A stretch of DNA of 20,232 nucleotides from positions 20,599 to 40,830 of the IMG/VR virus record IMGVR_UViG_3300000101_000022, one strand, 5' to 3'. This DNA is from a virus. The position numbers and the translations under genes are program-made. The notes beneath the pieces are model-generated. The model saw only the letters and a list, made by a program, of their open reading frames with translations. It had not been told where the DNA came from and ran no database searches. This document shows, in pieces, positions 9,001 through 20,094 of this stretch; position 1 is the stretch's first letter, and each line of letters starts with the position of its first letter.

Positions 9001-9741
9001 TTTGGATATAGAATGTTTAAAGACATGCTTAACAGAACGCACTATAAGAGACTAAACCAAGCAAATGTTTACTTCTTAGCAGAGCCGTTAAGTATATCAG
9101 ATCAAGCAATTCAACTTACAGACGCACAAGGTATTACACAACCAAATAAAGAACTAAATGTTCCAGGCGTAATATTTGTTAACGGAGAAAGAATTGAATA
9201 CTTTGAAGTAGTTGGAAAAGAATTAAGACAACTACGTAGAGGTACATTAGGAACAGGACCTGCTGATACTTACCCTGCAGGAACAGAAATTATGGATCAA
9301 AGTAATTCTGAAACTATTCCTTATACAGACGAAATGGTAAGTTCAATAGCACTAGATGATGAAAGTACACAAATATTGCTAGATTGGATCCCTACTAACG
9401 GAGTAAACGAGTTTGAAGTGTTTGTAGCAGGACGTAGACTACGTAAGAATTCAATTAGTATGTACCAAAATCAAGTAGTTGATGCTAATGGAATTGTAAC
9501 AACAGAGCTTATTGCTAAAGATAGCCCAGAAGGCGACATTACTTTAGCACCAGAGTTTACGTTAAATATTACAGATTCATCAGCAACAGTAACACTTGCA
9601 GACGCTCCAGTAACAGGTACTAGGGTTGTTATAGTAAGAAAAATAGGAAAAACGTGGCAAACACCAGGGGAGCAGTTAAGATACGCAAATAATTCAATTG
9701 CTGAATTCATCCGCGAGGCAACAACTGACTTACCTAAATAA
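1..9741 (+). CDS. Giant modular baseplate/tail structural protein, 5' end missing (possible gp7-like wedge protein)
   Basis: The reading frame is open from base 1 (codons CAA AGT GCA ...), so the gene starts upstream; the TTG at 82 is only an internal codon. 3246 residues are visible, ending with TAA at 9739-9741. Modules in order: FG-GAP-like propeller units (403-663 and 2860-3980) separated by about 730 residues; a Tyr/Trp-rich region (about 4130-5040) with WWDLSTVKYIDYHQGS and YYFWVKATK; two GxGYTxxPxVTI modules (5161-5340, 6187-6420); the motif NLPSFEKYIEEVKPYRTK (about 5926-5990); many beta-sandwich-like modules (6960-9640). The C-terminus, with TWQTPGEQLRYANNSIAEF, resembles ends of marine T4-like virion proteins as I remember them. 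It lies directly before fibre genes, where baseplate wedge genes sit in T4-like phages. Virion structural protein is secure; equivalence to the wedge initiator gp7 is an inference from memory of the central motifs. A gp10-like or fibre-like role remains possible. Confidence 0.85.
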   Translation, partial: QSAIPVENDAVLVLDRLTTVKVNDIVGLYDVTEEVQGFFKVKSVELNRITITLPEDVALTTEATGLTGILTTFVSNRVATLADANAFAETDVEFGETIWVDSITADGKGKWNVIRAGNSFDLDENLINPVENNISFGESIANDSANTVVAVGSPLDGDGKVYIYERQQDGSTTFGTLQPKQVIEPIANYSTTPGKFGQAMSMSPDGEYLVITAPNSSNVKTAYKDEFTFATDYKLGSIVQYNGNLYKSRRTVKGRTDNVVFGTFDSASRWRSELYKLHGAYDDVPLIALGDLPLIDVEIDHILVRAPLDAYEGSNIGDTLYLDWNELSLNYTPDVKPEIVNIELTNPVRLTTNSNHGLANGDQVILTDVPNDNLSFRPIAFPYLYDNSNINTPFDTVQQSSVKGIEGTKYYAKVLTNQQIELYSDEALTIKVNGTVGFVGTANIGGFNGYLNKINKPFDNTFSGINKDFLSLNPHIIRRKVQEVFYILDPVNVPSVSAGDRVTTATGNADVVRVRNELGRLVIYADRKNGVFDESGTLYINDQFLVGSYTRPLADNVDRSTVLGGYWEIPLASGFIPKNQQLTNTPTTDSGEGLVVVDVKNNYNPATLPGVGWTESTARLPYKSSVQNTLENPVVVLSSTSKAFKKETDLIRVLSHKSQGVAGNVTEVDILDPRFVVRLPKNVSDKAVSATADGTTPNPYVGVYLNDIPANGVLPDISDTGFGADPYAIINVDKRLPTDLWNGYIDYDVFAEVDLAPGDTIREGQSGATAVITFIQRDLDKSRLYVKGVAGEFSFGSRYVDGDGIAPQSMWLYKQIGANLTRIGTTESRQLADEDIGYLAVFTHTTNLSIPPKLTFALNSITDEVADYETKFITGIEYQTWIEEFKPGLPRVTLEPSTENNDWAQVDNIPINVGRDASSYTKEGAYFVYQNNSTTGQYDLVSGYILPNRSNSRELGHSVKLIKDNNFYKLVINSKEAHTNDGTDGNGRLYFVLNGTSEFGTYNWSLGRDPDFKGEYNTISSYYQDQVVIYNDVFYRALTNLSNEEFTPIKWQVIGSDIDFVGYLPNTSGLVIPGDDSSIVNLSTSGYGEVFDISDNGRVLATVARYDSGNKLVIYTLKDMHFQYVTEFTAPIDSDGYGNSITVSDNGNLIVVSAPGTDARESQQGKVFVYKNVAGTYSLQQELNSPNAELVEGFGQTLGFDGNQLIVTGATSDILLDTTFDRYENRDTTRNDYVNDPTKGFNVAETTYDNGFTTFVKRVSDSGNVYVYENINDTLVFGQRLKYSNFNVKNFGKNAIVNNNTILVGLPALGVTGNIQGQVAVYIKDDIDSTWSVYREPIDPADLNKFRGSFVYDTKQNNMLTRLDILDPILGKIPGTAEQELSYKTHYDPANYNVGFTNNKEQYIAWDDRNKGKLWWDLSTVKYIDYHQGSITYSQNTFNKLAEGASIDVYEWVESNILPSAWDNLADTNRGTALGISGTSKYGDTKYATQEIYDSVGQVFTTKYYFWVKATKVLPQIEGRNLTAYDIQNIITDPAGQKLKFVTILGNDRFVLYNCNNLVSDTDVAINFRYWTIENQDNNIHTEYQIVTDGFETSKPKSSIEQKWFDSLIGTDKYGRAVPDPTLSIKQKYGNLNRPRQGWFVNRKEALKQFIERVNRVLIKELAVDNLDLTKLSNKDPRPTILSGMFDSIIDTEAELRFVGTVRAEQAVLEPVCVDGTVTKIKVITRGRGYKNLPKITINGTGTDLELTPVLNNIGAITSVTVVNGGTNYTDDLTLTVRPLSTLVRSDSTLGGKWSIYVWDSTNRNWTISNQQSYDVAEYWNYKDWYAEGYSELTSVDYLIDNLYELNIIQDTIGDIVKISSVGTGGWILLEKIVNVDTPDYSSGYKTVGREDGTLEFLSKLYTQDGGSLELRKILETIRDDLFVDELANEYNQLFFAGLRYVFTEQNYVDWAFKTSFIKAKHNVGELKEKTTYQNDNLPSFEKYIEEVKPYRTKVREYLSAYDKTDNTQSVVTDFELSPFYDTERGEIVSPQVKINDGVLSGINFNIDQYPQKHWVDNFTYSVEEVKIENGGSGYTNIPQVTITGGGGTGATASAYIGSGSVKNIVITNSGSGFTSIPTITIDGVQDEGGTPPKVSIVLGNKKVRSLNITQKFDRLSPNLEILNLPETELFTSTGTELTLTLKFPMDLTRTNVRVFFNDTEALSSQYSFNNKELFSTNKTHIRNQGYITLTNAQLVGTIIRVEYNKDISMLTAADRINLFYNATDGQLGKDLGQLMDGVDYGGVEVKSFEFGQDLGWDSKEWYTTSWDSYDENFDDESFVTTGPTFRFQLSKPLQEDAIYNVYVNATRVDDINYDGSTKTYIAGDGSTVLSLGNPNAIMLSITSDSTEYVVENGNYYIDIQNVEEWEEFFATSNPTITFRKSTSDGSFLPEGIGFDSLIEGGNLQYGTATGIDAGDINLDGDGFVTPTTSKGPEELVPGQLHDTLDLKVYDRSADGGSLISTRNYTATDGQVNFDLDVLPHNIFSAIVKVNGKILQSEDVPGSDSSVVGTPEYSINFTDKKLVLRDALVAGDKVNVLSMAGSGERILDTDHFIGDGTTRTFVTSVIWSDGIQNYINVDGANAQVSLFETDSSYGDKAGLVGLDFVIPPNDNAFVYYSLFDTNEETIQRYSEVIIDRFIGDGSTVQFELSPEPASRLPLSHNIIVKVDDKILFPGYTQQWYITTAREYVLDRSQYPTSSLSPDAVDVYINGIKKVLLKDYRWNFNNSSVTLFDNVGETGDDLEIVITDSAEYEFSKNTLIGLPTVTGTFEPGETVEIGTGDSTVYTATVKSFTTGTGNLVVVGTVPGLSQAVDLDGSIPIVGLTSNATASSIVSITLVEAGDRLVLDSIPADGKQIDVYKFNRHELQDIQMETKTNVSRSVLTVGTDDYYEFNRLTKGLVKLRAPAVDTAYLWISLNGTLLTPNVDYKLVKMDNYVQIDRPVKPNDKIQVIHFAADKASEKFGYRMFKDMLNRTHYKRLNQANVYFLAEPLSISDQAIQLTDAQGITQPNKELNVPGVIFVNGERIEYFEVVGKELRQLRRGTLGTGPADTYPAGTEIMDQSNSETIPYTDEMVSSIALDDESTQILLDWIPTNGVNEFEVFVAGRRLRKNSISMYQNQVVDANGIVTTELIAKDSPEGDITLAPEFTLNITDSSATVTLADAPVTGTRVVIVRKIGKTWQTPGEQLRYANNSIAEFIREATTDLPK
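403..663 (+). repeat. FG-GAP-like propeller units 1-2 within giant protein
   Basis: Two units of the form FGxSxxxxxxxxxLVVGAPxxxxGxVYVY are visible. Unit 1 reads FGESIANDSANTVVAVGSP and ends GKVYIYER; unit 2 reads FGQAMSMSPDGEYLVITAP. The pattern fits the FG-GAP type 2 repeats that form beta-propeller blades. The remaining units resume only at 2860. Confidence 0.65.
694..825 (+). repeat. Aromatic carbohydrate-binding-like module, copy 1
   Basis: The segment YKLGSIVQYNGNLYKSRRTV followed about 20 residues later by a Trp matches the loose pattern Y-x-x-G-x-x-V-x-Y-x-x-x-x-Y ... W seen in CBM5/12-like modules and common in marine phage structural proteins. It follows propeller unit 2 directly. 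A second copy lies at 3049-3165. Sugar binding is inferred from the pattern only. Confidence 0.4.
2860..3980 (+). repeat. FG-GAP-like propeller units 3-7 within giant protein
   Basis: Five more units are readable: LGHSVKLIKDNNFYKLVINS (about 2860), GYGEVFDISDNGRVLATVA (about 3256), GYGNSITVSDNGNLIVVSAP with GKVFVYKN (about 3406-3514), GFGQTLGFDGNQLIVTGA with GNVYVYEN (about 3577-3810), and NFGKNAIVNNNTILVGLP with GQVAVYIK (about 3868-3972). With units 1-2 this makes seven, the usual number of blades in an integrin-type propeller. Units 3 and 6 carry extra sequence between their strands. The classic DxDxDG calcium loops are not evident. Confidence 0.65.
3049..3165 (+). repeat. Aromatic carbohydrate-binding-like module, copy 2
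   Basis: The segment SSYYQDQVVIYNDVFYRALT, followed by FTPIKWQVIG, repeats the pattern of the module at 694-825. Here it sits between propeller units 3 and 4, so both copies project from the propeller region. Confidence 0.4.
5161..5340 (+). repeat. GxGYTxxPxVTI beta module, copy 1
   Basis: It contains RGRGYKNLPKITINGTGTD and then SVTVVNGGTNYTDDLTLTV, two half-repeats of the form V-x-N-G-G-x-x-Y-T-x-x-P-x-V-T-I. The module resembles short Gly-rich beta repeats that are frequent in marine phage virion proteins. A fuller copy lies at 6187-6420. Confidence 0.6.
5926..6006 (+). other. Conserved-looking baseplate motif in giant protein
   Basis: The stretch NLPSFEKYIEEVKPYRTKVR is helical and charged, set among beta-rich modules, and is preceded by a WAFKTSFIKAKH segment. 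From memory it resembles a segment of large baseplate proteins of T4-like marine phages. I use it as the main, tentative, hint that this is a wedge protein. Confidence 0.4.
6187..6420 (+). repeat. GxGYTxxPxVTI beta module, copy 2
   Basis: Two half-repeats are clear: GGSGYTNIPQVTITGGGGTG and then ITNSGSGFTSIPTITIDG, with an Ala/Ser-rich linker between. It is the better-preserved partner of the copy at 5161-5340 and stands just before the C-terminal beta-sandwich series. Confidence 0.65.
7501..8990 (+). repeat. Series of divergent beta-sandwich-like modules at the giant protein's C-terminal end
   Basis: At least four units share the scheme DGxxxFxL ... IxVxVNGxxL ... DY ... ILxxxPxxGDxIxV. They begin near 7510 (TATDGQVNFDLDVLP), 7768 (DHFIGDGTTRTFV), 8023 (DRFIGDGSTVQFELSPEPAS) and 8770 (YLWISLNGTLLTPNVDYKL). 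The FIGDGTT/FIGDGST openings of the second and third are nearly identical. Between the third and fourth lies a GETV-type module (about 8407-8620). Related units occur at about 6960-7280 and 9340-9640. Such modules usually form stalks or spacers in tail proteins. Confidence 0.6.
8998..9340 (+). other. GVIFVNGERIEYF / LRRGTLGTG module of giant protein
   Basis: The segment has FGYRMFKDMLNRTHYKRLN, then PGVIFVNGERIEYFEVVG and LRQLRRGTLGTGPADTYPAG. This combination is, as I recall, one of the best-conserved pieces in large virion proteins of marine T4-like phages, and it supports the assignment of the phage type. Its function is unknown. Confidence 0.5.
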
Positions 9742-9749
9742 ATACACTA
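9737..9749 (+). promoter_or_regulatory. Putative late promoter overlapping the giant gene's stop codon
   Basis: The sequence AATAAATACACTA spans the TAA at 9739-9741. It contains ATAAATA, matching the core of T4-type late promoters (TATAAATA), and the ATAAATAC-TA arrangement recurs at 14857 and 19768. It lies about 15-25 nt before the ATG at 9763. The next gene has a good Shine-Dalgarno site, AGGAAG at 9752-9757. Confidence 0.5.
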
Positions 9750-9762
9750 GCAGGAAGATAAA

Positions 9763-10380
9763 ATGACAGATACATTTAAAGATTTAAACGGAGTACTACT
9801 CCAAGGACATATCAAAATTAGTGATCCTGAGAGTGGCGAGATTCTTATTGATAAGCGTAATGCTATTCATTATGAGAACATGAGTTTGGCACTAGCGGAA
9901 TCACTAGCCAACGCAGGACAAGGGCCTATATATAAAATGGCATTTGGTAACGGTGGTACAGCAGTTGATCCAACAGGAATTATTACTTACTTAACACCAA
10001 ACAGTACAGGTACAAATGCAAGTTTGTACAACCAAACGTTTGCTAAAGTAGTAGACGATCAAGCAGGTAATAATACAGATCCTGTAAGAAACAAAATAGA
10101 AACAAGACACGTTAGTGGTACAAACTATACAGACATACTTGTTAGTTGTTTGCTAGACTATGGTGAACCAAGTGGACAAGATGCATTTGATACTACAACA
10201 AATACAGAAAACTTATATGTATTCGATGAACTAGGACTAATAAGTGCTGGGGCAGGCGGTACAGACGGTAGACTTTTAACACACGTTATCTTCCATCCAG
10301 TACAGAAATCATTGAATAGACTTATTCAAATTGACTACACTGTAAGGGTACAGAGTTTAACTGGCTTTACAGAGGTATAA
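9763..10380 (+). CDS. Probable virion structural protein, 205 aa, between giant baseplate protein and fibre genes
   Basis: The start ATG at 9763 follows AGGAAG with a 5-nt spacer and a putative late promoter. The protein has no signal peptide or membrane segment. Readable segments are IHYENMSLALAESLANAG near the N-terminus, YKMAFGNGGTAVDPTG, a central SGTNYTDILVSCLLDYGEPS, and HVIFHPVQKSLNRLIQIDYT near the C-terminus. As I recall, similar proteins of about 200 residues occur beside baseplate and fibre genes in marine T4-like phages, without assigned function. Only 3 nt separate it from the next gene, so it is very likely co-expressed with the fibres. It may be a baseplate-fibre connector or a small tail protein; the sequence does not decide this. 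Confidence 0.65.
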   Translation: MTDTFKDLNGVLLQGHIKISDPESGEILIDKRNAIHYENMSLALAESLANAGQGPIYKMAFGNGGTAVDPTGIITYLTPNSTGTNASLYNQTFAKVVDDQAGNNTDPVRNKIETRHVSGTNYTDILVSCLLDYGEPSGQDAFDTTTNTENLYVFDELGLISAGAGGTDGRLLTHVIFHPVQKSLNRLIQIDYTVRVQSLTGFTEV

Positions 10381-14852: not shown

Positions 14853-14874
14853 TACGATAAATACTATTATCGTA
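14853..14874 (+). promoter_or_regulatory. Putative late promoter inside a perfect inverted repeat
   Basis: TACGATAA and TTATCGTA form a perfect 8-bp inverted repeat around the 6-nt loop ATACTA. The promoter core GATAAATACTA (14856-14866) runs from the left arm through the loop and is identical to the element upstream of the minus-strand fibre gene. The ATG at 14892 follows a GGGG-containing Shine-Dalgarno-like site at 14878-14881. No T-run follows, so it is not a typical terminator. Confidence 0.5.
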
Positions 14875-14891
14875 ATAGGGGATATTAACGA

Positions 14892-17525
14892 ATGGCTTAT
14901 ACAATATTTAATACTCGTAATAACAGCGTAGCAGTAGTTGAAGATGGTACTATTGACAACACAACTGACCTAAAACTAATAGGTAAAAACTATGCAGGTT
15001 ACGGCGAAATACAAAATGAAAATTTTGTTTACTTACTAGAAAACTTTGCTGGTGCAAACCAACCACCAAGACCAATAGCAGGACAGTTATGGTTTAACAC
15101 TACTTCTAAAAAAATAGAAGTATATGATGGTAATAGTGAAAGCGTTTTTGTTCCCCTTGGAAACGTTCACATTGGTTCTAAGCCAAGCGGTTCAGCAATT
15201 ACAGCGGCAAATGTTAACAAAGGTGACTTATGGTGGGACGATGTAACAAGTCAGCTATATGCACATAACGGTGCAGTATCAGGAGATCCTTTTGTACTAG
15301 TTGGACCAAAAGGCAACCAAACTGTTAAAACAACAGTAGATGATGCTGAAGTTTATGATAACTTGTTTGCAGGCCAAGCAGACGATACTCCATACAAGCA
15401 CAGAATTTTAAAAGGTTTCGTAGATGACGTTGTTATCTTTACAGTAAGTAATGACGAATTTACATTAGATGATTCAAACCCAATTACTGGCTTTGATAGA
15501 ATTAAAAAAGGTATTACATTACTTAATACACAAAATGCAAACAGCGGAGTTACAACAGGTAACTATCAATTACATGGTACTGTTTCAAATGCATTACAAT
15601 TAGGTGGAACACTAGCGGCAGAGTTTGTACAACGTTCAAACCCAACGTTTGTTACACAAGTTGATATTGCTGACAATGATGGTTTATTAATTGGACCAAA
15701 CGACGAATTACTAGTTAAAATATCCGGCGGCGAAACAATACTTGAGTCAACTATTACAAATGCTGATATGTCATTTAAAGTTAAAGACGCAGGCGGCTCA
15801 ACAGTTATTCCATTAAAACTTTCAGCAACTGGCCCAATGCCAAATGCAGATAACACAATGGATATTGGTTCTACAACTAAGCGTTGGAACGAAGTACATG
15901 CTGTAAACTTTAGAGGTATAGCAGACGAAGCAAATACTGTATTAAGTGACGGAACATACAAAATTGCTACTAAAGGAAACACATTTGACGCTCTTGTAAC
16001 AAGAGATAGCGTAGGTGACATCTTTGGTACTAGTTTCCGCGGAACGCACTTATACAACAGCACAGACGCTACAGCGGCGCTTACAGGTAGAGTTACTAAA
16101 GCAGATGGTGTACAAGTAGACAACGGAGCAACATTTATTGGTGCGGCAACTACTGCTACAGCAAACACACTAGTTGCTAGAGACAATTCAGGTAATATTA
16201 CAGCAACACAATTTAGTGGACTAGCATCAAGAGCGGCAACACTACAAGTTGCTACAGGTGCAAATACATATGAATATAGAGTTGGTCAAGTTGCAGACGG
16301 TGCGGCACAGCCAGACACAGTTGCAGTTAGAGACAGCAACGGAAAACTATATGCTACAGAATTTATAGGTGCATTAAACGGTGCGGCCGCAACAGCAAAT
16401 AAATGGACTACTGCAAGAATATTAACAGTAGACGGTGATTTATCAGGACAAGTTACAATAGATGGCTCGCAAGATGTTACTTTAACACTAACAGCTGGTA
16501 GTAACAGTGTTTCTTTAGGAACAGATACTACAGGTAATTATGTACAAAATATATCAACATACAACAGTGATCCTTATCTTAATGTTTATGTAAACAATGT
16601 ATTAGACGGTGCAGGCGCAGAAAGTGCAGTACTACAATTAGGACTTGATGCTAGTACAACTAAAACTTCAAACTCATTAGTTGCACGAGATGCATCTAAT
16701 GCTATTGCTGTAGGTCCTATTAGTTCAGATGATATTACTGCTACTACTATAGACGGTAGTATAATAACAGCAAGTACTAGATTTACAGGACACGTAAACG
16801 AATCAGGTACAGCAAACGATGGTTGGTTTGATAACTTAACTGTTGGAACACTTAATGCTACTAACTTTAACTTTAACAGTATTGTAACTGCTATTGCAAA
16901 TGGTGGTACAGGCGCAACAACTGCTCCTCTTGCTAGAACTAATTTAGATGTTTATAGTAAAGGCGAAGTTGATACAACAGTATCTAACTTAAATAGTGCG
17001 ATTGCTGGTGTTAGCTCTACATCAATATCAAATGGTAATAGTAGCGTAGCAGTAGCAAACGGCGGCGATACAACATTTACGCATAATGGTACTGTAATTG
17101 GTAAAGTTAAATCTACAGGTATTGACTTAGAAGCAGGATTTAAATTTATTGGTACAGCAACAGAAGCAGACTTTGCTGACTTAGCTGAGAAATATACAAC
17201 AAACGAAGAATTAGCACCAGGCACAGTAGTATGTGTTAGTGCAGATGAAGATAGCGAACTTAAAGCATGTGGACCAAACGATTTTCCAGTAGGAATTATA
17301 TCTACTGATCCAGCTTACTTAATGAACGCAAGTGCAGACGGACAAGCAATAGCACTTAAAGGTCGTGTACCAACTCGTGTACTAGGAGCAGTTAATAAAG
17401 GTGATATACTTTATGCAAGTTACGATGGTGTACTAATTAAAGACGGTGCACAAAAAGTTGCTATAGCACTTACTACAAGTACTATTGAAGAAGAAAAAGT
17501 AGTTGAGTGTATGATAATTCTTTAA
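14892..17525 (+). CDS. Tail fibre paralogue 3 with C-terminal Peptidase_G2/chaperone-like domain
   Basis: ATG at 14892 has its own putative late promoter and a 56-nt leader, unlike the preceding fibre gene. Residues 1-235 are the shared anchor: MAY start, NENFVYLLENFAG, GQLWFNTTSKKIEVYDG, GDLWWDDVTSQLYAHNG, FVLVGP, FTVSNDEFTLDD. The shaft includes DIGSTTKRWNEVHAVNFRG and four RD-G/N-type units with Arg at residues 371, 430, 480 and 599 (for example VARDNSGNITATQFSG and VRDSNGKLYATEFIG), then GDLSGQVTIDGSQDVTLTL. From about residue 760 the C-terminus has DLAEKYTTNEELAPGTVV, VGIISTDPAYLMN and ALKGRVPTRVLG. That pattern resembles C-terminal domains of the Peptidase_G2 kind, which help trimerise fibres and may cut themselves off. 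No catalytic residue can be assigned by eye, so cleavage is unproven. Confidence 0.8.
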   Translation: MAYTIFNTRNNSVAVVEDGTIDNTTDLKLIGKNYAGYGEIQNENFVYLLENFAGANQPPRPIAGQLWFNTTSKKIEVYDGNSESVFVPLGNVHIGSKPSGSAITAANVNKGDLWWDDVTSQLYAHNGAVSGDPFVLVGPKGNQTVKTTVDDAEVYDNLFAGQADDTPYKHRILKGFVDDVVIFTVSNDEFTLDDSNPITGFDRIKKGITLLNTQNANSGVTTGNYQLHGTVSNALQLGGTLAAEFVQRSNPTFVTQVDIADNDGLLIGPNDELLVKISGGETILESTITNADMSFKVKDAGGSTVIPLKLSATGPMPNADNTMDIGSTTKRWNEVHAVNFRGIADEANTVLSDGTYKIATKGNTFDALVTRDSVGDIFGTSFRGTHLYNSTDATAALTGRVTKADGVQVDNGATFIGAATTATANTLVARDNSGNITATQFSGLASRAATLQVATGANTYEYRVGQVADGAAQPDTVAVRDSNGKLYATEFIGALNGAAATANKWTTARILTVDGDLSGQVTIDGSQDVTLTLTAGSNSVSLGTDTTGNYVQNISTYNSDPYLNVYVNNVLDGAGAESAVLQLGLDASTTKTSNSLVARDASNAIAVGPISSDDITATTIDGSIITASTRFTGHVNESGTANDGWFDNLTVGTLNATNFNFNSIVTAIANGGTGATTAPLARTNLDVYSKGEVDTTVSNLNSAIAGVSSTSISNGNSSVAVANGGDTTFTHNGTVIGKVKSTGIDLEAGFKFIGTATEADFADLAEKYTTNEELAPGTVVCVSADEDSELKACGPNDFPVGIISTDPAYLMNASADGQAIALKGRVPTRVLGAVNKGDILYASYDGVLIKDGAQKVAIALTTSTIEEEKVVECMIIL

Positions 17526-17540
17526 GAATAATCCACTCAA

Positions 17541-17569
17541 TAAAAAAGGAGCATTACGCTCCTTTTTTT
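17541..17569. terminator. Bidirectional hairpin terminator between convergent operons
   Basis: GGAGC (17548-17552) pairs perfectly with GCTCC (17558-17562) around ATTAC, and the stem is extended by A6 on the left and T7 on the right. A T-run therefore follows the hairpin on either strand. It stands 15 nt after the plus-strand fibre stop and 14 nt after the minus-strand BolA-like stop, so it probably ends both transcripts. Confidence 0.9.
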
Positions 17570-17583
17570 ATGACTAAAAAATA

Positions 17584-17811
17584 TTATTGTTCTGAGGGTG
17601 TTAAAGTTTTTACAGTAAGTGCATGAAGTTCACCACTTGCCATTTCTTCTTTTACTAATTTTAAAACTAGTCTTTGTCTATTTACTTTTGATATTCCTTC
17701 AAAAGCAGGCGAAATAATAACTGCTGAACAGTTGCATCCGTCGCCTTGCATAGTTACAATAGATTCTGATATACCAGATTCAAGCCTTGCTTGTACTTCT
17801 TCTAAAGTCAT
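17584..17811 (-). CDS. BolA/IbaG-family protein, Cys-loop type
   Basis: This 75-residue protein aligns over nearly its full length with the IbaG/BolA fold (E. coli IbaG is 84 residues): an N-terminal helix (TLEEVQARLESGI), GDG followed by CNC at residues 26-28, VIISPAFEG, SKVNRQRLVLKLVKEEM, and the C-terminal HALTVKTLTP with His63. BolA proteins pair with monothiol glutaredoxins, sharing a [2Fe-2S] cluster, and act in iron-sulfur trafficking or regulation. The family's cluster ligands are the C-terminal His and a His or Cys in the loop after strand 1; here the loop offers two Cys. The start ATG at 17811 has AAAAGAG just upstream. It lies 18 nt after the fibre gene and just before the terminator, so it is probably a late gene. 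It is a phage-borne cellular-type gene; the target is unknown. Confidence 0.85.
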   Translation of the reverse strand: MTLEEVQARLESGISESIVTMQGDGCNCSAVIISPAFEGISKVNRQRLVLKLVKEEMASGELHALTVKTLTPSEQ

Positions 17812-17829
17812 GTTAACTCTTTTTAGTTA

Positions 17830-19722
17830 TTAGTGTAGGTCTGCCCAGGTTGAGCCTGTGTATACTTGTAATTTTGTATCTGTAGTATTAAACACAACCA
17901 TGCCAGCTGCCGCTGTTAGTGCATTACGCTGTGTAGTTGTCATACTAGCAAATTTAACAGCAGTACCAAAGTCTGCAACATCTTCTACAATTTTAGTTTT
18001 AATTGTATAGTTTGAAATGTCTTGTAGCTCTGCCGGATCAGTTACTGAACCTGCATATTCAGTTACAAAGAAACCACTGTTTGTTTCACTTAATGCTGTT
18101 CTGTGAATTGCAGTAATTGCACGGTCACCAAATGCTGAAAGTTTACCTGTAACAGTCAGGTCGTTAGTTACATTAACGTTACTGTCAATTACTAATTCAG
18201 TTGTATAATCGTTTACATCTGCGCATATGCTGTTAATAGCAAGTTTTGTAGGGTTACTTGCACTGTATGCATCAATGTTATTATCGTTAATTACAACGCC
18301 AGTTATGCCACCTATGCTTACAGCATTGTCAACAGTTAAGTCACTACTCATAACTACTGCTGGAGTAACTGTAATAGCACTTGAATCTGCACTATCAATT
18401 AAAGTAGTAAACACGTTACCTGTAAATGTGCCTGTATGATCACCTGCCGCATTACCAACTACTGCACCAGTATGTGTACCTGCACTGTTACCAGTTAAAT
18501 CACCTGTTACGTTACCAATTAATGTGTTATTTACAGCATCTACAATAACAGTACTGTCATCGCCAAATACTGAACCTTTAACATCGCCTGTGTGATAACC
18601 TGCTGTATTACCAGTTACATTGCCTGTTAGTGTTCCTGAAAGTGTTGTTGCTGTAACTGAAAGTACACTTAAAGCCGCATCTGATGGACCTGTGTTTGCC
18701 GCTAATACTGTTTGCGCACCTGATCCTTTTACATCACCAGTTACGTTACCAATTACGTTACCAGTTAAATCACCTTGTAAATCAAATGCAGGACTTGCTG
18801 TATGTGTAACTTCTCCTGACGAAGCATCATACATCAGTATAGTTGTACCAACAGCACTTCTAACTGGTTTAACTACAAATGTATCTGCTACAATGTTGTT
18901 TACGGCAACACCAGTGGCATTTATTACAATCGAGTTTGCGGCTTGATTTGTTTCACCTGCTTTTTCACCAATGGCTATTGCATTTACGCCTTGAGTTGTA
19001 TAACCTGCGTGAGTACCAATTGCTACAGCAAGGTCACTTTGTGTAGTTTTGCCTGCGGCTTCACCAATTGCTATTGATTGTATGCCTTGAGTAGTTTGAC
19101 CTGCGTCATAACCAATTGCTACTGAGTAAAGTCCGCTTGATTGTCCTGCACCCGAGCCAAGTGCAATACCTGTTTCACTTGTTCTTAAACTTGTTGTTTC
19201 GATATCACCAACAATCTTATTGTTAACGCCATCTACTAATAGTGTGCTATCATCGCCAAATACACTACCTTCTACGTCACCGTCAAGTCTTACTGCGTGT
19301 ATGTTATTCCACTTTAATGTGCTTGAACCTAAATCATATGTAGCGTCTGCGTTCGGAGTTAATGAACTTGTTATTCGTGCGCCTAAGTTAACAGTGTCGT
19401 CACTAGCATCATCACCTAAGATAATGTCGCCAGTAGCAGTAATAGTACCGGTAATATTAATATTACCTTGACCAATTATGTTGTTGCCGTTAAGGTCTAA
19501 ATTTTGTTGTAAGTCTAATGTTGAGTTTATTGTATCAGCTACAATGTATTCACCTATGCTTGCAATAGCTGAACCAGCCATTGGCATACCGCCTGCTGTT
19601 GCTCCGTCACCTATATATAATTTGTCGGTATCTGTTACATACACCAACTCGCCGTTTGCGAAAACTACACCGCCACCTGCGGTACGTTCAGCATCTGTGC
19701 CACGTCTGATCTGTAATGCCAT
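17830..19722 (-). CDS. Tail fibre with Mtd-type N-terminus and YadA-head-like repeats
   Basis: ATG at 19722 follows AGGAG (19732-19736) and two ATAAATA elements. The N-terminus, MALQIRRGTDAERT, NGELVYVTDTDKLYIGDG, matches the N-terminal domain found in Mtd-type and other phage fibre proteins, which attaches to the virion. Residues 128-150 hold YDLGSSTLKWNNIHAVRLDG, a shaft motif also present in the plus-strand 877-residue fibre. Residues 186-265 are five AIGxxAG-type repeats like the YadA adhesin head. TGNVTGD-type repeats (315-435) follow, suggesting a beta-helical shaft. GSVFGDDST occurs twice (residues 152 and 383). The C-terminal part has MTTTQRNALTAAAGMVVFN and ends KLQVYTGSTWADLH, a common phage fibre ending. 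It is oriented opposite to the other fibres and probably forms a separate adhesin. Confidence 0.85.
   Translation of the reverse strand: MALQIRRGTDAERTAGGGVVFANGELVYVTDTDKLYIGDGATAGGMPMAGSAIASIGEYIVADTINSTLDLQQNLDLNGNNIIGQGNINITGTITATGDIILGDDASDDTVNLGARITSSLTPNADATYDLGSSTLKWNNIHAVRLDGDVEGSVFGDDSTLLVDGVNNKIVGDIETTSLRTSETGIALGSGAGQSSGLYSVAIGYDAGQTTQGIQSIAIGEAAGKTTQSDLAVAIGTHAGYTTQGVNAIAIGEKAGETNQAANSIVINATGVAVNNIVADTFVVKPVRSAVGTTILMYDASSGEVTHTASPAFDLQGDLTGNVIGNVTGDVKGSGAQTVLAANTGPSDAALSVLSVTATTLSGTLTGNVTGNTAGYHTGDVKGSVFGDDSTVIVDAVNNTLIGNVTGDLTGNSAGTHTGAVVGNAAGDHTGTFTGNVFTTLIDSADSSAITVTPAVVMSSDLTVDNAVSIGGITGVVINDNNIDAYSASNPTKLAINSICADVNDYTTELVIDSNVNVTNDLTVTGKLSAFGDRAITAIHRTALSETNSGFFVTEYAGSVTDPAELQDISNYTIKTKIVEDVADFGTAVKFASMTTTQRNALTAAAGMVVFNTTDTKLQVYTGSTWADLH
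18508..18576 (-). repeat. GSVFGDDST module, downstream copy
   Basis: It encodes residues 383-405, beginning GSVFGDDSTVIVDAVNNTLI. This is the second copy of the module at 19201-19269 in the same gene, with most hydrophobic and Gly/Asp positions kept. Confidence 0.75.
18913..19173 (-). repeat. Five YadA-head-like 15-16-residue repeats
   Basis: Units begin at residues 186, 201, 217, 233 and 249 with IALG, VAIG, IAIG, VAIG, IAIG, each followed by x-x-A-G-x-[ST]-[ST]-x. The spacing is 15, 16, 16, 16 and 16 to the following IVI at 265. AIGxxA repeats of this type form the trimeric left-handed roll of YadA-type adhesin heads. Confidence 0.85.
19201..19269 (-). repeat. GSVFGDDST module, upstream copy
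   Basis: It encodes residues 152-174, beginning GSVFGDDSTLLVDGVNNKIV. It precedes the YadA-like head repeats, and its sister copy (18508-18576) follows them, so the two copies bracket the head and the TGNVTG tract. Confidence 0.75.
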
Positions 19723-19743: not shown

Positions 19744-19768
19744 TATTTATTTGTTATTAGTATTTATC
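19744..19768 (-). promoter_or_regulatory. Tandem late promoter elements before the minus-strand fibre gene
   Basis: On the minus strand, GATAAATACTA (19768-19758) is followed by ATAAATA (19750-19744), both matching the T4-type late core. The first is identical to the 11-mer upstream of the plus-strand fibre at 14892. The fibre ATG is at 19722, about 35-46 nt downstream of the first element. They lie in the 54-nt gap between the upstream 105-residue gene and the fibre gene. Confidence 0.55.
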
Positions 19769-19776
19769 CATCTGAA

Positions 19777-20094
19777 CTATCTTCTTAACTTTAAAAATTT
19801 CTTAGTTCTTTTGGTAATATCTGCTTTAACCTTGTCTGTATCTAGTCTAAAGTCAACATTCTTTATTACATTTTGATACTGTTCAAATAGGTCGTCTAAG
19901 GATTTTTCTAGATCTTTTACAGGCTTTTTGTCTGTATTAATATCAATGTCCCATATTTTACCGTCAGTAAACTCTACTCTGACAGAGTTAAGGTACTCAA
20001 GTGGTACAACATCAATGTGTACGTCCTTGAGTACCTCTGGCCAATGATCTATTACTTCTTTTGGAAGTTGCTTTTTACGAGGTTTCTTTTGCAC
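19777..20094 (-). CDS. Hypothetical protein of marine T4-like phage type, 105 aa
   Basis: The start is GTG at 20092-20094, overlapping the end of the upstream gene by 20 nt; no ATG is available in this frame and no strong Shine-Dalgarno is seen, which suggests translational coupling. The protein is highly charged and Lys-rich, opening KKPRKKQLPKEVIDHWPEVL. A compact core, SVRVEFTDGKIWDIDI, is followed by two likely helices with VKDLEKSLDDLFEQYQNVI and DTDKVKADITKRTKKFL. There is no signal peptide or membrane segment. I recall similar small proteins in T4-like cyanophage genomes, without a known function. Basic ends could suit binding to nucleic acid or to an acidic partner, but that is speculation. 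Confidence 0.75.
   Translation of the reverse strand: MQKKPRKKQLPKEVIDHWPEVLKDVHIDVVPLEYLNSVRVEFTDGKIWDIDINTDKKPVKDLEKSLDDLFEQYQNVIKNVDFRLDTDKVKADITKRTKKFLKLRR

Follow-up and report, generated by a model that had tools for sequence, protein, structure and literature searches.

A captured IbaG-type bolA gene behind the tail-fibre gene of a T4-like phage, and its possible pairing with a host monothiol glutaredoxin

The DNA analysed here (the window) is a stretch of 20,232 nucleotides that covers positions 20599-40830 of a 52,819-base virus record, IMG/VR IMGVR_UViG_3300000101_000022. A minus-strand open reading frame falls exactly at window positions 17584-17811 and encodes a 75-residue product (MTLEEVQARLESGISESIVTMQGDGCNCSAVIISPAFEGISKVNRQRLVLKLVKEEMASGELHALTVKTLTPSEQ), referred to below as phage BolA. 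It lies directly behind a tail-fibre gene whose protein matches the Pfam model Mtd_N (1.2e-9), and a convergent structural gene follows on the other side (Table 1). The first-pass annotation, made from the sequence alone, had proposed a BolA/IbaG-like protein behind a tail-fibre gene, and both the identity and the position were borne out; it did not give the strand, the recent insertion from a Thioglobus/SUP05-type source or the empty site in sibling phages, all of which are described here.

Table 1. Features of the bolA locus and its surroundings, in window coordinates
Feature	Position	Strand	Basis or precision
Convergent tail/virion structural gene, far side of the insertion	14892..17525	+	
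Bidirectional intrinsic terminator between the convergent genes	17542..17568	.	z-scores -7.0 and -5.9
bolA, 75 aa, IbaG/YrbA type	17584..17811	-	Pfam, PDB searches, predicted structure, profile
Inserted segment, missing in one piece from two siblings (L013 and L014)	17586..17821	.	ends placed to within a few bases
Gap between fibre stop and bolA start, 18 bp, with ribosome-binding-site-like AAAAAGAG	17812..17829	-	sequence
Tail-fibre gene, 630 aa, N-terminal Mtd_N; upstream of bolA, in what is likely the same transcription unit	17830..19722	-	
Late-promoter-like AATAAATA, upstream of the fibre gene	19744..19751	-	position and conservation
Late-promoter-like GATAAATA, upstream of the fibre gene	19761..19768	-	position and conservation
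Conserved 105-aa neighbour, function unassigned; query for syntenic loci	19777..20094	-	

The stretches that had suggested the family (GDG, FEG, RQRLV and HALTVKTLTP) are all present in the product, which matches Pfam PF01722 with an E-value of 3.4e-13 (50.1 bits, above the family cut-off of 25.7). A sequence search of the PDB retrieved the BolA protein 3tr3 (1.1e-11), 1xs3 (4e-11) and E. coli YrbA/IbaG, 1ny8 (6e-8); when the family profile was searched against the PDB, YrbA 1ny8 was the best match at 1.2e-14, and E. coli BolA, 2dhm, was found at 5.4e-6. Against the BolA equivalog PRK11628 the phage protein scored 20 bits, far below the cut-off of 137. By these sequence comparisons, phage BolA is closer to YrbA than to classical BolA. 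The AlphaFold2 model (mean pLDDT 88.9, pTM 0.75) was compared with the PDB by Foldseek, and ranks 1-22 were all BolA proteins (top match 3tr3, TM 0.86), which rules out a non-BolA fold. A chance reading frame or an assembly chimera is also ruled out: three other IMG/VR contigs carry the gene with 100% identity at the protein level and 0-1 nucleotide differences, synonymous, among the bolA-bearing contigs, and siblings show an empty site.

In the [2Fe-2S] complexes of BolA with glutaredoxin, BolA supplies its C-terminal His, which is invariant, and either His or Cys of the beta1-beta2 loop (PMC7538681). The C-terminal His63 of phage BolA is invariant in both of our alignments (A1 and A2), the second of which has 14 rows and takes in Amphritea, Thiodiazotropha and UBA7310, and Cys26 of the loop is invariant in those 14 rows; homologues thus keep the two residues that the first reading had expected them to keep. 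The [H/C] loop of the phage protein contains Cys26 and Cys28 and no His, and Asn27 occupies the position of His32 in S. meliloti YrbA. Because Asn27 stands between the two cysteines and the loop His is missing, the protein is IbaG-like but not of the BolA_H type. Its loop Cys makes it a candidate for the BolA_C type, to which it may belong, and cluster ligation is predicted.

The bolA gene lies between the end of the fibre gene and a bidirectional terminator (an 11-bp stem with, on both strands, an A tract before it and a T tract after it), so it should share a late-promoter transcript with the fibre gene. The T4 late promoter is TATAAATA, which the NATAAATA-form motifs upstream of the fibre gene resemble. 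Such a motif is present there in 22 of 24 syntenic loci; one of the other two ends before the site (L008), and the other has a different gene there (L062). The number of late-promoter motifs in the window is not above chance, and it is their position and conservation that support them. Given the conserved motif and the late sigma factor of the phage, bolA is likely transcribed late, together with the fibre gene, as had been supposed. Exact RATAAATA matches occur four times in the window, all four just upstream of gene starts, in a count that is itself not above chance; two of them, at 9737-9744 and 14856-14863 on the plus strand, precede by 20-40 bp the structural genes that begin at 9763 and 14892. 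The middle of the fibre gene (window 18731-19330) is hypervariable, with 48-77% identity and length changes between phages that are otherwise more than 99% identical, and we read this as a sign of rapid fibre exchange.

The rest of the phage fragment encodes a late sigma factor (phrog_12791, 2e-75), and the fragment also codes for a gp46/SbcC-like protein, a baseplate wedge protein (phrog_10646), GTP cyclohydrolase, a QueE-like radical SAM protein, a 5'-3' exonuclease and a MoxR-like ATPase. On the strength of these genes the contig is a fragment of a T4-like phage. Every match of the baseplate wedge protein in the phage collection was below 60% identity. No tRNA genes were found in the phage stretches scanned, and DsrC was found neither on the 52.8-kb fragment nor in any of 24 related contigs. 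The QueE-like protein (phrog_2076; L007:7490-8383, minus strand, on the same phage contig) has its third motif Cys displaced: C-x3-C is followed by about 49 residues and then by C-D-T-Y-A-S, an insertion inside the cluster-binding motif. Beside the baseplate genes, a frame open for about 5,200 codons, in which one base is ambiguous, extends on the plus strand from L006:4710 to window position 9741 and is predicted to encode a giant virion protein.

Two sibling phages (L013 and L014) have tail genes that are about 95% identical and a clean empty site in which about 236 bp are missing; the breakpoints of the insertion sit in AATAA-type microhomology. With the 105-aa neighbour gene, 61 syntenic IMG/VR loci were recovered, some of which end before the bolA site. 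The only other syntenic loci with bolA are 3300009024_000029, 3300048036_000164 and 3300025870_000173, already found by BolA itself, and the gene is absent in the six loci where both flanking genes are comparable (L013, L014, L015, L017, L018 and L020). Since more distant relatives also lack bolA, its deletion in the two siblings is unlikely, and the comparison indicates that the gene is a recent insertion into the phage genome. Over the convergent tail genes, identity among the bolA-bearing contigs exceeds 99%; in the middle of the fibre gene they diverge strongly. As a host-derived gene in a true phage genome that the closest siblings lack, bolA is a candidate auxiliary metabolic gene, one that would change host metabolism during infection, and its absence from nearly all relatives means that it is dispensable for this T4-like phage group. 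In distant relatives other cargo occupies this place behind the fibre gene (L042:9410-12668, L046:9875-14652 and L062:9453-10064), including Asp/Arg beta-hydroxylase-like (PF05118) genes, which suggests a cargo slot of general use.

A scan of 84,980 genomes for bolA returned 14 loci. The ten closest cellular loci, with 59-75% amino acid identity and the GDGCNCS loop common to all, belong to Candidatus Thioglobus, related marine gammaproteobacterial MAGs and SAGs and a Bathymodiolus endosymbiont, and one comes from a bin labelled PS1 clade. The family of the best hit had a match in 76 of 83 genomes (73 of them full-length), with a top identity of 76%. In a tree limited by the 75 residues available, phage BolA is nested in the Thioglobus-type clade (support 100/100) and groups as sister of the best hit, modestly supported (89/79), on a long branch. 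We conclude that phage bolA was acquired recently from Candidatus Thioglobus/SUP05-type bacteria. In the genomes read in detail, the donor-clade gene lies 3' of a DUF47-pit phosphate-transporter pair, with rpmE, hemE, trpA and accD after it in three of four; this chromosomal neighbourhood marks it as an ordinary cellular gene of the donor clade, whose genomes also contain a second, classical BolA. In five Thioglobus-type loci (L069, L071, L076, L077 and L078) bolA comes directly after the DUF47-Pit pair, a genomic link between BolA and phosphate uptake. With bolA as the one pointer, the hosts are probably Thioglobus/SUP05-type sulfur oxidisers; a search of 83 Thioglobaceae-type genomes, run without a positive control, found no relatives of the phage.

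How widespread is bolA among viruses? We scanned 2.9 million viral contigs six times, with the phage protein, Thioglobus-type and gammaproteobacterial IbaG-type alignments and classical BolA as queries; four scans led to the same three contigs and two to nothing. Such scans depend on short conserved peptides and may overlook distant viral BolA genes. Three GenBank hits labelled as phage (H1, H2 and H42) were rejected as BolA of cultured phages, being pieces of bacterial chromosomes with the gene beside murA, rpoN and 5S rRNA, or tRNA genes; H3 and H43 are twin records of checked hits, and four short, unannotated hits (H4, H5, H41 and H44) were left out. The records AGRM01000002.1, CAKLQF020000038.1 and CAKLQH020000009.1 are bacterial chromosome contigs filed as phage, which leads to false "phage BolA" annotations. 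No PHROGs family matches phage BolA, and the viral structure library gave no match at E <= 0.001. The open-access text searched gave no account of bolA as a phage gene, and matches there for BolA beside phage were mostly the author name Bolanos; a paper on pelagimyophages names bolA only as regulated by sprT and not as a phage gene (PMC7029224). Across the viral contigs, the GenBank hits checked and the open-access text searched, no second clear example of a virus with bolA came up. Phage bolA thus adds a new gene family to a known kind of viral cargo.

The 52.8-kb fragment and the 24 related contigs, most of which are fragments, yielded no glutaredoxin, so a partner would have to be the host's. 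A Grx4-family monothiol glutaredoxin scored over the cut-off in eight of ten donor-clade genomes. A relative of bolA lies directly behind a monothiol glutaredoxin gene in Amphritea (CGFS), UBA7310 (CGYS) and the gammaproteobacterium L143 (CGFS); in the other sampled loci CGFS was not seen, and this adjacency is thus a minority pattern among the relatives. E. coli IbaG and Grx4 form a His63-ligated [2Fe-2S] complex (as cited in PMC10051749), and GrxD loads ErpA under iron limitation (PMC11327457).

The reading we favour, with a probability of roughly 55%, is that a T4-like phage captured an IbaG-type bolA whose late product pairs with the host CGFS glutaredoxin and sustains or redirects iron-sulfur delivery. 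A phage probably of Thioglobus/SUP05-type sulfur oxidisers would recently have taken up the Cys-loop gene of its host, to be transcribed with the fibre gene from a phage late promoter. The protein, predicted to fold as a BolA and retaining the residues expected to ligate iron, would most likely form a [2Fe-2S]-bridged heterodimer with the host monothiol glutaredoxin. This heterodimer would sustain or redirect cluster delivery late in infection, to the presumed benefit of the phage. Iron limitation as a possible driver, proposed in the first-pass annotation, would fit the biology of GrxD.

Among the rivals, the foremost, although unlikely, is that bolA is host DNA captured by chance in a permissive slot behind the fibre gene and expressed with little or no effect. 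The gene is carried by a single population of near-identical phages, its recent capture would have left little time for decay, and the same slot holds other cargo (Asp/Arg hydroxylase-like) in distant relatives. However, trimming has left an insert of one gene, which has a ribosome-binding site of its own and sits before the terminator; the frame is intact, all core residues are kept, and four contigs show no amino acid changes. Identity to the nearest known donor is 75%, and pairwise comparison of the phage and donor genes gives dN of about 0.2 and dS of 1.0-2.4, values that suggest purifying selection over much of the phage-donor separation and do not resolve the time spent in the phage. It is rather improbable that a late BolA/IbaG would alter host transcription, shape or envelope and aid lysis without iron-sulfur chemistry. 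In favour of this, BolA acts in E. coli as a morphogene that binds DNA, and in Vibrio cholerae IbaG influences the envelope. Overexpressed IbaG can harm growth, but it leaves E. coli cell shape unchanged (PMC10051749); moreover, the phage protein is of the IbaG type, not the additional classical type of the donor clade, and what is conserved are the residues expected to bind metal.

The same evidence, up to the binding step, would serve the idea that phage BolA competes for host GrxD, blocks iron-sulfur delivery and shuts down host functions, and BolA has been proposed to move GrxD out of its homodimer and into a heterodimer (PMC10051749). We regard this as very improbable: this protein is made by the host anyway, so that further copies could count only through dose, and the ligand residues show no sign of alteration. 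Least probable of all is a BolA associated with the tail fibre in the virion, a role raised in the first-pass annotation. Co-transcription with the fibre gene is likely, but siblings with the same tail genes lack bolA, and the protein is close to its cellular counterpart over the whole length, with no tail-specific addition. Taken as a whole, that first interpretation stands for identity, fold, residues, position and likely late expression; a virion role gained no support, and the phage glutaredoxin that it suggested looking for was not found on the fragment or in the related contigs.

If the favoured reading is true, the virus intervenes in iron-sulfur trafficking by way of a glutaredoxin partner rather than an assembly gene, in bacteria that are central to marine sulfur and carbon cycling. 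The empty site in near-identical siblings offers a natural comparison with and without the gene, bolA serves as a host marker for an uncultured group of T4-like phages, and the donor clade, with its Cys-loop BolA in bacteria, bears on the distribution of BolA_H and BolA_C. A bolder version can be put forward only tentatively, with the odds somewhat against it: a captured Cys-loop BolA, made late with tail genes, would take over the monothiol-glutaredoxin iron-sulfur relay of the host in phages of uncultured sulfur oxidisers. Such a protein would be the first BolA shown to be encoded by a virus, as well as a bacterial partner of the BolA_C type, a class described as usually absent from prokaryotes.

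Phage BolA has the same fold and length as E. coli YrbA (1ny8), S. meliloti YrbA (5nfk) and the Coxiella protein (3tr3), and it shares with the IbaG/YrbA subfamily the GDG, F-E/D-G, R-Q-R/K region, HA(L/V) and TP-E motifs. YrbA has a loop His, whereas the phage protein has Cys26, Asn27 and Cys28 there, and unlike the subfamily its gene is carried by a phage and does not adjoin murA. Human BOLA3, a eukaryotic BolA_C, resembles it in having an [H/C]-loop Cys and the invariant C-terminal His (PMC7538681), but the phage protein is of the bacterial/phage IbaG lineage, and its loop Cys is a putative counterpart of Cys59 of BOLA3. The chromosomal, pit-linked bolA of Thioglobus/SUP05-type bacteria has the same GDGCNCS loop, 75 residues and up to 75-76% identity; it follows DUF47-pit, whereas phage bolA follows a tail-fibre gene and has a long branch. 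The dsrC of SUP05 viruses is likewise a small gene that passed from the same bacterial group to phages, although gene and pathway differ and the paper makes no mention of BolA (PMC4164917). Like phage bolA, the sufE and nifU genes borne by viruses in marine viromes are iron-sulfur auxiliary genes (PMC8940887, where BolA is not mentioned), but they act in cluster assembly, whereas BolA acts in cluster transfer with glutaredoxin.
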